Shown here: piece after piece, positions 737 through 28,901 of the stretch
Position numbering within the stretch: the first letter of the stretch is position 1
How the letters are laid out: each line of letters opens with the position of its first letter
Assembly: GCA_945869165.1 (NCBI GenBank)
Contig: CAMBNY010000001.1
Location: 84,468-148,467 of the forward strand
Source of the DNA: Comamonas sp. lk
Lineage (GTDB): Bacteria > Pseudomonadota > Gammaproteobacteria > Burkholderiales > Burkholderiaceae_C
Direction of reading: 5' to 3'
Length of the DNA: 64,000 nt
Notes under the pieces: model-generated
What the model was told of the DNA's origin: nothing
The model's database searches: none
The model's input: only the letters and a program-made list of their open reading frames with translations
Translations under genes and position numbers: made by a program

Positions 737-1116
737 CGTGCGTTAGGAAGGCAAATTGCAAAACAGTACGAATTTGACAGAAAGCTGAGTTTATTCTAGT
801 GAAAATACCAAATTCAAGGAAATCAAACAATTTCATTAAGGACATCTTGTCCGCTGGGCGGCACGCAAACCGCCGGTCCAAATTGGTTTTTGATTGGCGT
901 TGCGGCCACAGAACGACACCACACGAGGTACGTGGCTCGTAGGGCATCGGGACTGGACCCTCATGTTTGCGCGCACATTTCCCTTGGATGCCTCCATGAA
1001 TAATTAACTTATTTAATATGTTTTTCACGCCCTTTATCAGCTGGGGCTATGGGCTAGGCGTCTCAACTCACCCTAGAATGAAATCAACACATCAAAAAGC
1101 ACCAAGGAGACCCCTC

Positions 1117-2802
1117 ATGACCAGCACCACCAAGCTCATCCTCGACCACATCTACCAGCACGAAAAGGAACGCGCGCAGCAGGTGTACCTGACACAACCC
1201 CTGGGTGCGGGGCGTGTAGTGGACTACACCTGGGCCCAGACCATGGACCAGGCCCGGCGCATGGCCACCCATTTGCAGTCCATGGGCTTTGCGCCCGCCG
1301 CACGCATCGCGATCCTGTCTAAAAACTGCGCACACTTTTTCATGACGGAGCTGGCCATTTGGATGGCCGGCTACACCACGGTAGCGATCTTCCCCACCGA
1401 AAGTGCGCAAACCATCCGTTTTGTGCTCGAGCACAGCGAGGCTAGTCTGCTGTTTGTGGGCAAACTAGACACCTGGCCAGACCAAGAACCCGGAGTACCG
1501 ACAGGGATACCACGCATCGCCTTCCCCCTGGCGCCCGCCACCTCGTATGAAACGTGGGATGCCATCACGGCACGCAGCGCGCCCATGGCTGGCCAACCGC
1601 AGCGGGCGGGCACCGATCTGGCCATGCTGATTTACACCTCGGGCTCCACCGGCCAGCCTAAAGGCGTGATGCACAGCTTCGAGCGCATCACCAAGGCAAC
1701 CGAACTTGCCGTGCAGCAAAGCATGGCGCAGGACCCAGGAAATAACCAAATCCACCGCGTGCTCTCGTATTTACCGCTGGCACATGTGTTTGAGCGCGCA
1801 GTGGTGGAATGTGCCAGCTTCGTCAGCGGCGAGTTGCATGTGTTTTTTGCGGAATCGCTAGACACCTTTGCCGCCGACTTGCAGCGCGCACGCCCCACTA
1901 TTTTTGTGTCCGTGCCACGTTTGTGGCTGAAGTTTCAGCAAGCAGTGTTTGCCAAGATGCCGCAAAAAAAGCTGGACTTGCTGCTGCGCATCCCGATTCT
2001 GAACAAAATCATCGCCAAAAAGATTCTGACCAATCTGGGCCTGGACCAAACAATTTCTGCTTTTAGTGGCTCGGCGCCTTTGCCTGCTGACCTGATCCGC
2101 TGGTATCGCAGCTTGGGCTTGCAACTGCTTGAAGGCTTGGGCATGACCGAAGACTTTGCTTACTCCCATACGGCCACGCCTCGCTTTAGCGAACCCGGGT
2201 ATGTGGGCATTGCCAACCCGGGCGTGCAAGCGCGCATCAGCCCCGAAGGGGAAATATTGGTCAAATCGCCCGGCCAACTGGTGGGTTACTACAAGCGCCC
2301 AGATCTGGACGCCGAATCGTTTACCGAAGACGGCTTTTTCCGCACCGGCGATTTGGGTTCACTCGCGGCCGATGGCCAGCTCAAAATCACGGGTCGCATG
2401 AAAGAGCTGTTCAAGACCAGCAAAGGCAAATACGTCGCCCCCGCTCCCATCGAGAACAGGATAAACAACCATCCGCTGGTAGAAATGTCCCTCGTAGGCG
2501 GTGCCAGCCACGAAGCGGCCTTTGCCATGGTGGTGCTGGCCGAAGATATTCGCCCGCGCCAAAAAGACGCGGCAGTGCGCGCTGAGGTAAAAAGCGCGCT
2601 GACCACCCTGCTTGCCGAAGTGAATAGCCAAGTGGCAGACTACGAAAAGCTGAAGTTCATCGTCGTGGCCGACCAGCCTTGGCAAATCGAAAACGGCATG
2701 CTCACGCCCACTATGAAAATCAAGCGCACCAATATCGAGAAGGCCATCGAACCCCAGCTAGACGCCTGGTACGCTGCCAATCAGCCTGTGCAGTGGGCTT
2801 GA
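1117..2802 (+). CDS. AMP-binding long-chain acyl-CoA synthetase
   Basis: AMP-binding motif 'MLIYTSGSTGQPKGVMHS'; 'GYYKRPDLDAESFTEDGFFRTGDLG'; AAGGAG SD just upstream of ATG 1117. Confidence 0.9.
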   Translation: MTSTTKLILDHIYQHEKERAQQVYLTQPLGAGRVVDYTWAQTMDQARRMATHLQSMGFAPAARIAILSKNCAHFFMTELAIWMAGYTTVAIFPTESAQTIRFVLEHSEASLLFVGKLDTWPDQEPGVPTGIPRIAFPLAPATSYETWDAITARSAPMAGQPQRAGTDLAMLIYTSGSTGQPKGVMHSFERITKATELAVQQSMAQDPGNNQIHRVLSYLPLAHVFERAVVECASFVSGELHVFFAESLDTFAADLQRARPTIFVSVPRLWLKFQQAVFAKMPQKKLDLLLRIPILNKIIAKKILTNLGLDQTISAFSGSAPLPADLIRWYRSLGLQLLEGLGMTEDFAYSHTATPRFSEPGYVGIANPGVQARISPEGEILVKSPGQLVGYYKRPDLDAESFTEDGFFRTGDLGSLAADGQLKITGRMKELFKTSKGKYVAPAPIENRINNHPLVEMSLVGGASHEAAFAMVVLAEDIRPRQKDAAVRAEVKSALTTLLAEVNSQVADYEKLKFIVVADQPWQIENGMLTPTMKIKRTNIEKAIEPQLDAWYAANQPVQWA

Positions 2803-2884: not shown

Positions 2885-5860
2885 CTAAAACCCGATAGCC
2901 GCGCCATCCGAGCGCGGGTCGGAGCCGCCGTAGCGCATGCCCGATTGTGGGTCGATCAGGATGCCGTGCGCGTGGCCGGCAAACTCGTTCCAGTCGCCCC
3001 AACGGTTGAGCAAGTGGCCGCGCCGGTCTAGCTCGGCAATGGTCTCGGCAGGAAAGCGCGCCTCGATATGCAGCGTGTCGCGCGACTCCAGCAGGCCAAA
3101 GCGACCCGACAGCCAACGCGGCGCCTCCAGGGCTTCCTGGATGTCGCAGCCGTAGTCAATCAGGTTGATATAGGTTTGTAAATGGATTTGCGGCTGCCCG
3201 TCGGCGCCCATGCAGCCGACCACGCCCCAGAGCTTGTCGTCTTTGAAGGCGATGGACGCAATCAGCGTATGCAGCGGCGTCTTGCCCGGTTCCAGGTGGT
3301 TGGGGTGGGTCGGGTCCAGGTTGAAATAGGCGCTGCGGTTTTGCAGCACCACGCCGGTATTACCCGCCACCACGCCCGAGCCGAACACGCCGTACAGGCT
3401 GTGAATCAGCGCCACGGCATTGCCTTCGGCGTCCACCGTGGCAATAAACACGGTATCGCCGCTCAGGCTGCCGTAGGACGGCACTTTGTCCCAGGGCAAG
3501 GCGCGCGCCGGGTCCATCAGGCTGCGGCGCTCGTCGGCGTAGGCTTTGGAGATCAGGCGCTCCATCGGCACGTCCGCAAAAGCCGGGTCGGCCAGGTGGC
3601 GGTCGCGGTCGTGGTAGGCGATTTGCTTGGACTGCACCAGCAAATGCACATGGTCTGCGCCCAGGTGCGGGCGCTTGTGCAGCTCCAGCGGCTCCAGCAA
3701 ATTGAGCATTTCCAGCACGGTAAACCCCTGGGTGGGCGCGGGCGTTTCAAAAATTTTGACGCCCCGATAGGTGCCGCTGATGGGTTCGCCCCAGCGCGCG
3801 GTTTGCGCGGCGAGGTCGGCCTCGGTAAACAAGCCGCCTTTTTCCTTAGAGAAACGGGCTAGTTCGCGCCCTACTTCGCCTTCGTAAAAACCGGCGCGGC
3901 CACGGTCGGCAATGGCTTGCAACGTCTTAGCCAGGCCGGGGTTGCGCAAAAGCGCGCCGGGGCGCGGAGTTTTGCCATCGGGCATAAAGATGGCCATGGT
4001 CTCGGGGTGCGGCGCCAAGTCTTTGGCGGTGGCGTCGATAAAGCCGGACAAGCGGGCCGTGACCGGAAAGCCGTCGCGCGCATAGCCAATGGCGCTTTGC
4101 AGGTTGCGCGCCAGGGGCAGCTTGCCGTAGGCGGCATGCGCCTCGGCCCAGCTGGCCACGGCGCCGGGTGTGGTGGTGGTGGCAGGCAGGATGCCGCGAA
4201 ACGGGATTTCGCTATGCCCTTGGCTTTTGTACCAGTCCACCGTCGCGCTGGCTGCGGCGCGACCGCCGCCGTCCAGGTAGCGCACGGCCTTGGTTTTGGC
4301 GTCGTAAATCAGCCAAAACGCATCGCCGCCCACACCCGTCATGTGCGGGTAGAGCACCGCCAAAGCGGCGGTGGTGGCGATAGCCGCATCGACCGCCGAG
4401 CCACCAGCGCGAAGCACGTCCGCGCCTGCTGCGGAAGCCAAAGAATGCGGGCAGGTGACCATGCAGGAAGGGCCCATGGTGACGGGGCGGCCGGTATTGA
4501 TTTTCATAAGAGGTTGGGGAAGTGAATTGTTGAGTTGTCGTTGGTCACCCGATGGCTCAGCACAAGGCCGGATGCCGGGGTGGCGATTATCAGGGTTAAC
4601 CAAGAAGGCGGCCCTGCCCCAAACCACCTCCACCCGCTCCAACCCATGAAAGTGGTAAACATCCTTCACCACCGGCCGCTGCGCCAGACGCAGCCCCGGC
4701 AGTCGGGCAAACAGAATCGGCAAAGCCACCTGTAGCTCAAGGCGTGCCAGCGGGGCGCCTATGCAAAAGTGGATGCCCGCACCAAAGGACAGGTTGGCGC
4801 CTTGGTCGCGCTGCGGCCAAAAGCGCAGGGGCTCGGTAAATTGCAGCGGGTCTAGGTTGGCGGCGGCCAGGATGAGACCGATGCTTTGGCCTTTCTTGAT
4901 GTGCACGCCCTCGGCCATTTGCACGTCCTCCAGCGCGTAACGCGAAAAAATATGCACCGGGGCGCAGATGCGCAAGCACTCTTCCACCGTGGCCTGGGTG
5001 GCGGCGTCGTCGGCAAACAATATGGCCGGGTCCAGCCCGCTGTCCAGGATGGTGGTAACCGCGTTGCCGATCTGGTGCACCGTGGCTTCGTGGCCAGCGT
5101 TGAGCAGCACGATGATGGTGGAGACCAGTTCCTCATCCGTCATGGGCGGGCCGGCGCGGTCGCTGCTGATCATGCTGCTGATCAGGTCGTCTTGCGGCTG
5201 GCTACGCCGCTGCGCGATCAGGCCGCGCACATAGTCGGCAAATTCGCCCGCTGCTTGGTTGGCCGCCAGTTCGTCGGCATGGGTGCGGCCGAACATATAC
5301 ATGTGCACATAGTCGTGCGACCAGCGCAGGAGCTGCGGGCCCATCGCCTCGGGTACGCCCAGCAGGCGGGCGATGATGGTGACGGGGATGATGTCGGCAA
5401 AGTCGCCAAGCAATTCGGCATGGCCTTGGGCCGCAAAGCCGTCGATCAGCGTATGCGCCAGCGTGGCGATTTGCGGGCGAAAGCGCGCGATCTGCCCGGA
5501 CACAAAAGCGCGGTTGACCATGGTGCGCAAGCGCGTGTGCTCGGGCGGCTCTAGCGACAGCAGCGACCATTGCTCGGCCTGGTCAAAGTCGCGCAGATGC
5601 GGCGCGGGCTCGGGCAGGCCCAGTTCTTGGCGCGTGGCCACATGCAGTATTTGCCGCCCAAAGCGCTTATCGCGCAAGAGGCTATTGACCTGCGCGTAGC
5701 CGCAGCAAAACCACTGCGCTTGTTCCTCCCAATAAAACAGTGGGCATTGCGCGTGCAAGGCGGCGTAGGCGGCATTGGGATTGCGATAAAAAGCGGGGTC
5801 GCGCGCGTTGAGCGATACGCGGCGGGTGGCGGGGTTTATGTGCAGGTACGTAGGGTGCAT
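2885..5860 (-). CDS. Single ORF: cytochrome P450 (N-terminal) joined to gamma-glutamyltransferase (C-terminal)
   Basis: P450 motifs: I-helix 'NAGHEATVHQIGNA', ExxR 'ECLR', heme loop 'FGAGIHFCIGAPLARLE'. GGT part begins 'MKINTGRPVTMGPSCMVTCPHSLASAAGADVLRAGGSAVDAAIA' and contains 'GDTVFIATVDAEGNAVALIHSLYGVFGSGV'. No stop between them. ATG at 5860 (MHPTYLHINP) preferred over TTG at 5914. Confidence 0.8.
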   Translation of the reverse strand: MHPTYLHINPATRRVSLNARDPAFYRNPNAAYAALHAQCPLFYWEEQAQWFCCGYAQVNSLLRDKRFGRQILHVATRQELGLPEPAPHLRDFDQAEQWSLLSLEPPEHTRLRTMVNRAFVSGQIARFRPQIATLAHTLIDGFAAQGHAELLGDFADIIPVTIIARLLGVPEAMGPQLLRWSHDYVHMYMFGRTHADELAANQAAGEFADYVRGLIAQRRSQPQDDLISSMISSDRAGPPMTDEELVSTIIVLLNAGHEATVHQIGNAVTTILDSGLDPAILFADDAATQATVEECLRICAPVHIFSRYALEDVQMAEGVHIKKGQSIGLILAAANLDPLQFTEPLRFWPQRDQGANLSFGAGIHFCIGAPLARLELQVALPILFARLPGLRLAQRPVVKDVYHFHGLERVEVVWGRAAFLVNPDNRHPGIRPCAEPSGDQRQLNNSLPQPLMKINTGRPVTMGPSCMVTCPHSLASAAGADVLRAGGSAVDAAIATTAALAVLYPHMTGVGGDAFWLIYDAKTKAVRYLDGGGRAAASATVDWYKSQGHSEIPFRGILPATTTTPGAVASWAEAHAAYGKLPLARNLQSAIGYARDGFPVTARLSGFIDATAKDLAPHPETMAIFMPDGKTPRPGALLRNPGLAKTLQAIADRGRAGFYEGEVGRELARFSKEKGGLFTEADLAAQTARWGEPISGTYRGVKIFETPAPTQGFTVLEMLNLLEPLELHKRPHLGADHVHLLVQSKQIAYHDRDRHLADPAFADVPMERLISKAYADERRSLMDPARALPWDKVPSYGSLSGDTVFIATVDAEGNAVALIHSLYGVFGSGVVAGNTGVVLQNRSAYFNLDPTHPNHLEPGKTPLHTLIASIAFKDDKLWGVVGCMGADGQPQIHLQTYINLIDYGCDIQEALEAPRWLSGRFGLLESRDTLHIEARFPAETIAELDRRGHLLNRWGDWNEFAGHAHGILIDPQSGMRYGGSDPRSDGAAIGF

Positions 5861-5933
5861 GAACAAATTTGGCAGGGGCTGCGAAACGGTTTCATCAAGT
5901 GCTCCAGCGATCAATGGGTGACTGATTCAAAAG

Positions 5934-6046: not shown

Positions 6047-7165
<1,119 letters not shown>

Positions 7166-8813: not shown

Positions 8814-8850
8814 ATGTAATTACTTTCGTAACCACATAGAAAGAAGCATC

Positions 8851-9177
8851 ATGGATGAAACCAACACAGCATCGCACTACGAAGGCAGCATCGTGCGGGT
8901 TGGCAACTCGCGGGGCATGCGCCTGCCCGCCCGGTTTTTTCAGGCGCACCCCGAGTTTGCGGGCAAAGTCCAACTGACGGTGGTGGCCGACGGCGCGGTC
9001 CTAATGTCGGCCAAACCCATATCCGAACCCGTTGACGCCGAGGAAGACCCGGTACTGACCAGCTTTCTGGGTTTTTTGGAAAAGCAAATGGGCGCGCGCC
9101 CCGAAGACATCGTGGCCGCAGACGCCGCGCAATTGCGGCGCATTGCCAAGCTGGTCAAAGGCGTAGCCACCGAGTAA
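8851..9177 (+). CDS. prlF: PrlF/SohA-type antitoxin (AbrB-like fold)
   Basis: 'EGSIVRVGNSRGMRLPARFF' SpoVT/AbrB-like N-terminus; immediately upstream of YhaV-like toxin. Confidence 0.75.
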   Translation: MDETNTASHYEGSIVRVGNSRGMRLPARFFQAHPEFAGKVQLTVVADGAVLMSAKPISEPVDAEEDPVLTSFLGFLEKQMGARPEDIVAADAAQLRRIAKLVKGVATE

Positions 9178-9181
9178 ACCC

Positions 9182-9640
9182 ATGCCAACCCTAGCCAAAG
9201 GCTGGCGCCTGTACTACTTTCGCATATTCCAAGCCGCCCTGGATGAACTCGAGGCCACGGTGACCCAACTTGCCCGCGAAAAGCCCAATACCTACAAAAC
9301 ACACCCCAAAACCAAGCTGCTGGCCTCGGTGTACAAAGCCATCACCGACACGGTGCCCAGCAACCCCGACGCCCCCGAGTTCCGCTTGGGCAAAACCCTA
9401 GGCGCCCACAATACCCACTGGCGCCGGGTAAAAAAAGGGTTGCCCGAGCGCTACCGTCTGTTCTTTCGCTTTGCATCCAGCCCCACAAAAGTCATCGTCT
9501 ACGTTTGGTTCAACGACGAAGACAGCTTGCGCAAGGCAGGCGCCAAGACCGATGTGTACGAAACCTTCCAAAGCATGCTGGCACGCGGTGTGGTGCCGGG
9601 CGGGATAGGGGAATTATTGGCGGGAGCGGCTGAGCGGTAA
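9182..9640 (+). CDS. yhaV: YhaV-family ribonuclease toxin
   Basis: 'KTKLLASVYKAI', 'FRLGKTLGAHNTHWRRVKKGLPERYRLFFRF', 'VWFNDEDSLRKAGAKTDVYETFQSML' resemble E. coli YhaV. Confidence 0.85.
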   Translation: MPTLAKGWRLYYFRIFQAALDELEATVTQLAREKPNTYKTHPKTKLLASVYKAITDTVPSNPDAPEFRLGKTLGAHNTHWRRVKKGLPERYRLFFRFASSPTKVIVYVWFNDEDSLRKAGAKTDVYETFQSMLARGVVPGGIGELLAGAAER

Positions 9641-28700: not shown

Positions 28701-28779
28701 GGAATACCTTTTTAACGTTTCAAAACAATCCAGCATGGATGTATGAAACGAAAAAGAGGCCCACAGAACACGGCATTTT
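28684..28779 (-). promoter_or_regulatory. candidate riboswitch expression platform: 13-bp perfect inverted repeat spanning leader and first thiB codons
   Basis: AAAATGCCGTGTT (28779-28767, minus) pairs with AACACGGCATTTT (28696-28684, minus), followed by TTT-A-TTTT. Confidence 0.55.
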
Positions 28780-28788
28780 CCCCATCAC

Positions 28789-28868
28789 ACTTCCTACGCT
28801 GGCATGACCCAGATCAGGTTCATGGGGTATTTCTCAGTCCAACTTGCGCCAGACACCCCCGGTGAAGC
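28789..28868 (-). ncRNA. TPP riboswitch (THI element) aptamer
   Basis: Reverse strand: CTTCACCGGGGGTGTCTGGCGCAAGTTGGACTGAGAAATACCCCATGAACCTGATCTGGGTCATGCCAGCGTAGGAAG; conserved CTGAGA, ACCTGATCTGG and GCCAGCGTAGG(A)A blocks. Confidence 0.97.
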
Positions 28869-28901
28869 CGCGATCATACCCGCGCCTACGACAATCAGGA
28901 C

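Follow-up and report, generated by a model that had tools for sequence, protein, structure and literature searches.

A single reading frame on the minus strand of the 64,000-nucleotide stretch of Comamonas sp. lk DNA analysed here (the window) encodes a cytochrome P450 followed by a member of the gamma-glutamyltransferase (GGT) family, which raises the question of whether the two constitute a fusion enzyme or are neighbouring genes. Judged from comparison with related loci, the joined frame looks incidental and not like a new fusion enzyme.

The joined frame and its two enzymes

Counted from a TTG, the open frame (5914..2885, minus strand) has 1009 codons; from the ATG of the P450 at 5860 it extends uninterrupted for 991 codons (5860-2885). 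It is laid out as the P450 (5860-4619), 37 linker codons (4618-4508) and the GGT-family protein from an ATG at 4507. A sequence-only reading of this DNA had placed both enzymes in one ORF with no intervening stop, which is confirmed by frame reading and by Pfam, where the joined ORF matches p450 (E 3.4e-22) and G_glu_transpept (E 9.2e-145, positions 2-512 of the 512 in the profile). The heme loop FGAGIHFCIG, the linker GRAAFLVNPDNRHPGIRPCAEPSGDQRQLNNSLPQPL and MKINTGRPVTMG, and the coordinates given in that reading were likewise correct on re-reading. Shuffling the bases of the spacer leaves it open in 33% of cases, so 37 open spacer codons alone are not unusual; the unusual part of the joined frame is the loss of the P450 stop, and not the openness of the spacer.

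The P450 gene (4619..5860, minus strand) comprises 414 codons to a conserved terminal Trp and has relatives that are 66-97% identical. Its assignment rests on both the Pfam profile (p450, PF00067) and the Cys heme loop, and its nearest solved chain is 8yhn_A (E 7.1e-85). Like other bacterial cytochromes P450, of which 8yhn is the nearest solved, it is full-length, with the heme loop, the ExxR motif and the HEAT motif of the I-helix, but in this genome it lacks a stop of its own. Following the conserved Trp414, its relatives mostly show a Gly and then a stop, or a stop directly.

The GGT-family Ntn-hydrolase (2885..4507, minus strand) comprises 540 codons with its own ATG, and scores above the curated cut-offs of both family profiles (PF01019, 483.8 bits against 27; NCBIfam TIGR00066, 401.9 against 357.85). 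Its best structural match is PDB 2nlz (E 1.1e-103), and it aligns in register with the small chains of GGTs, a register that predicts Thr352, within DTVFIATVD, as the nucleophile and start of the small subunit. No signal peptide is apparent by eye. With the 2NLZ-like members of the family, named 'cephalosporin acylase' in the PDB, it shares a full-length alignment and the position of the Thr nucleophile; like 2NLZ, it is also without the glycine motif of the E. coli enzyme, having GCMGADGQPQ where E. coli has GSPGGSRI, and no E. coli-type GSPGGS motif was found in its alignment with 2e0w (VVGCMGADGQPQ). Because this motif is absent, gamma-glutamyl substrates are not assured. It differs from the 2NLZ-like GGTs in being open to an upstream P450. 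By these matches, both enzymes are ordinary members of their families.

The junction in close relatives

Among 103 genomes of the genus, the junction region is present as one block in four, namely the window's own genome, G021, G019 and G002. The last three are the tandem-pair relatives of the window; their loci, L033, L032 and L031, are 87.7-94.2% identical to it in DNA, and all begin the GGT at the same ATG as the window does. Their P450 ends separately, with WG and then TAG in L033 and L031, and with WGQGRPLG and then TAA in L032. More broadly, the P450 is terminated on its own, no more than eight codons past Trp414, in 74 of 74 distinct loci drawn from this group and the Rhizobiaceae.

Relative to these loci, the window lacks bases at two sites of the minus strand. 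One, between 4617 and 4616, is present in L033, L031 and L032, and its absence removes or bypasses the P450 stop (window GGGG-CAGGG; L033 GGGGCTAGGG; L031 GGGGATAGGG; L032 GGGGGCAGGG). The other, between 4557 and 4556, is present in L032 and L033, and its absence is needed to join the GGT frame (window GCTGA-GCC against GCTGATGCC). The requirement for the second missing base was judged against a 94%-identical relative. When L033 is read in three frames, a skip of one base past its stop yields the window-like RAALLVNPDNRHPGILPCADAIG and then a TGA, and only the +2 frame, shifted once more, leads on into SGDQRQLNNSLPQPL and the GGT; since the +1 frame meets this TGA, two indels, both deletions, are needed relative to L033. 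A CAG in place of the TAG is common to L032 and the window, such that a substitution in an ancestor of both may already have abolished the P450 stop, with a G perhaps dropping out afterwards.

The sequence-only reading had proposed either a fusion via stop loss or an indel, and where the relatives have their stop the window is indeed one base short. It had also named in advance a one-base junction difference in close relatives as the sign of separate genes, and a small difference of this kind is what keeps the two genes separate there.

Accident, draft error or fusion

That the missing bases are an assembly or consensus error, with the genes separate in the organism, is rather unlikely. The draft consists of 81 contigs and is 84% complete, and one of the missing bases sits in a G run (GGGG against GGGGG in L032), as such an error might; random errors, however, would rarely spare about 2860 coding bases and yet strike the spacer twice. 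Compared with the tandem-pair relatives, the P450 and GGT together contain no indels in about 2860 coding bases, and the 111-base spacer contains two. The spacer also differs by indels among all members, relatives included. Because the coding parts are without indels while the spacer varies by them, true spacer evolution is favoured, and real spacer indels appear likelier than sequencing error. Changes private to the window number 15 synonymous and 2 nonsynonymous in the P450 and 17 synonymous and 1 nonsynonymous in the GGT, a pattern that indicates purifying selection on both genes; because these changes are mostly synonymous, neither gene looks like a pseudogene.

With real deletions, the joining could still be accidental or functional. 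A genuine, selected fusion in which the P450 and GGT act together would suit a frame that is open, with both domains intact and constraint relaxed in neither, but it is very improbable: the joined frame occurs in one genome only, its linker corresponds to leader DNA, adjacency of the two genes is limited to a few relatives while other genomes of the genus carry the GGT apart from the P450, and further GGT-family genes are present in the same genome. No second case of the two-domain P450-GGT architecture was found in the 103 genus genomes, in 151 family genomes or in a GTDB scan, the species being represented in this comparison by a single genome. The 151 family genomes drawn held GGT orthologues 76-81% identical and no other fused frame, and the exact junction pattern had no match in viral contigs. 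The architecture search thus gives no support to a P450-GGT fusion of general significance. In the open-licence papers searched, no described P450-GGT fusion was found, the matches being unrelated or concerning other P450 fusions. P450 fusions known from nature, P450 BM3 (CYP102A1; e.g. PMC6367340) for example, resemble the window frame in carrying the P450 N-terminal to a second domain in-frame; P450 BM3, however, joins the P450 to its reductase, whereas the frame described here joins it to an unrelated hydrolase and was found once. There is little probability, too, that a newly arisen fusion, born by the two spacer deletions, is really made with both halves working. Tandem but separate genes joined by accident in this genome, through one-base deletions in the spacer, are by a good measure the probable explanation.

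On this accidental origin, one-base deletions would have taken the P450 out of its stop-carrying frame and then into the frame of the GGT, and read-through of the P450 message would produce a P450-linker-GGT chain. GGTs cleave themselves before the Thr of the small subunit. Cleavage before Thr352 would release just the small subunit and keep the P450 joined to the large one; as the sequence-only reading had suspected, it would not set the P450 free. These products we infer, as we do the GGT promoter and the reality of the deletions. In a single draft genome, an open frame spanning two enzymes gives weak grounds for inferring a fusion protein, and near relatives settle the question; if the deletions are real, the locus is a clean, small case of stop loss joining neighbours that are both under purifying selection.

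A conserved P450-GGT operon, as might be read from the Rhizobiaceae matches, was rejected. In only 25 of 65 Rhizobiaceae-type loci, a 66-70% identical P450 lies just downstream of a different GGT, which is 29-32% identical and upstream of the P450, the opposite order (Rhizobiaceae loci L048-L104, e.g. L048:4815-7943); the pair is therefore a different one. The GGT of L048 apparently carries a signal peptide.

The spacer, GGT expression and surrounding genes

The spacer (4508..4618, minus strand; about 111-112 bases), read as the 37-codon linker, is the non-coding leader of the GGT in relatives, as seen in spacer alignments and the three-frame reading. The suspicion that the linker is translated intergenic DNA is well founded, as the spacer matches the GGT 5' leader of relatives with different upstream genes. 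Within it, a GATAAT element (4586..4591, minus strand) in the shared upstream sequence could be the -10 box of a promoter for the GGT. Each of the nine distinct GGT upstream sequences aligned from close relatives carries a CATAATC or GATAATC some 65 to 90 bases ahead of the ATG, and keeps it although the DNA further upstream differs among them. A generic promoter scan made no call at the spacer or the GATAAT element, and no convincing -35 was seen upstream of it.

The start MKINTG is common to relatives with other DNA upstream, L036 among them. As the sequence-only reading had observed, the ATG at 4507 has no Shine-Dalgarno sequence, but the same is true of the close relatives read, even those without a P450 directly upstream. 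The possible dependence of GGT translation on the P450 that it had drawn from this is not supported, and translational coupling as a general mechanism was rejected on the same start context. Purine-rich, Shine-Dalgarno-like stretches occur in the more distant GGT relatives L037 and L038, and are absent in the window's group irrespective of a P450 upstream. Because its own start codon and the conserved upstream element are kept, the GGT probably remains independently expressible, with free GGT still made.

In L036 (3321-4842), two toxin-antitoxin-like pairs, one MazE-like with PIN and one unnamed with PIN, separate the P450 from the GGT; the spacer may be a site of insertions. A palindrome-like sequence, AGGGTTCTGGAACCCT, directly precedes CATAATC in L036, with a similar one upstream of the GGT in L034, and is a possible operator beside a promoter.

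The joined frame is flanked upstream by an S-(hydroxymethyl)glutathione dehydrogenase gene (6047..7156, minus strand; TIGR02818, 725 bits against a cut-off of 544) and on the other side by a convergent gene for an AMP-binding acyl-CoA synthetase-like protein (1018..2802, plus strand; Pfam AMP-binding). Elsewhere in the window, a PrlF-like antitoxin gene is followed by a YhaV-like toxin gene (8845-9640, plus strand; Pfam), and a TPP riboswitch match scores 65 bits (28773-28870, minus strand).
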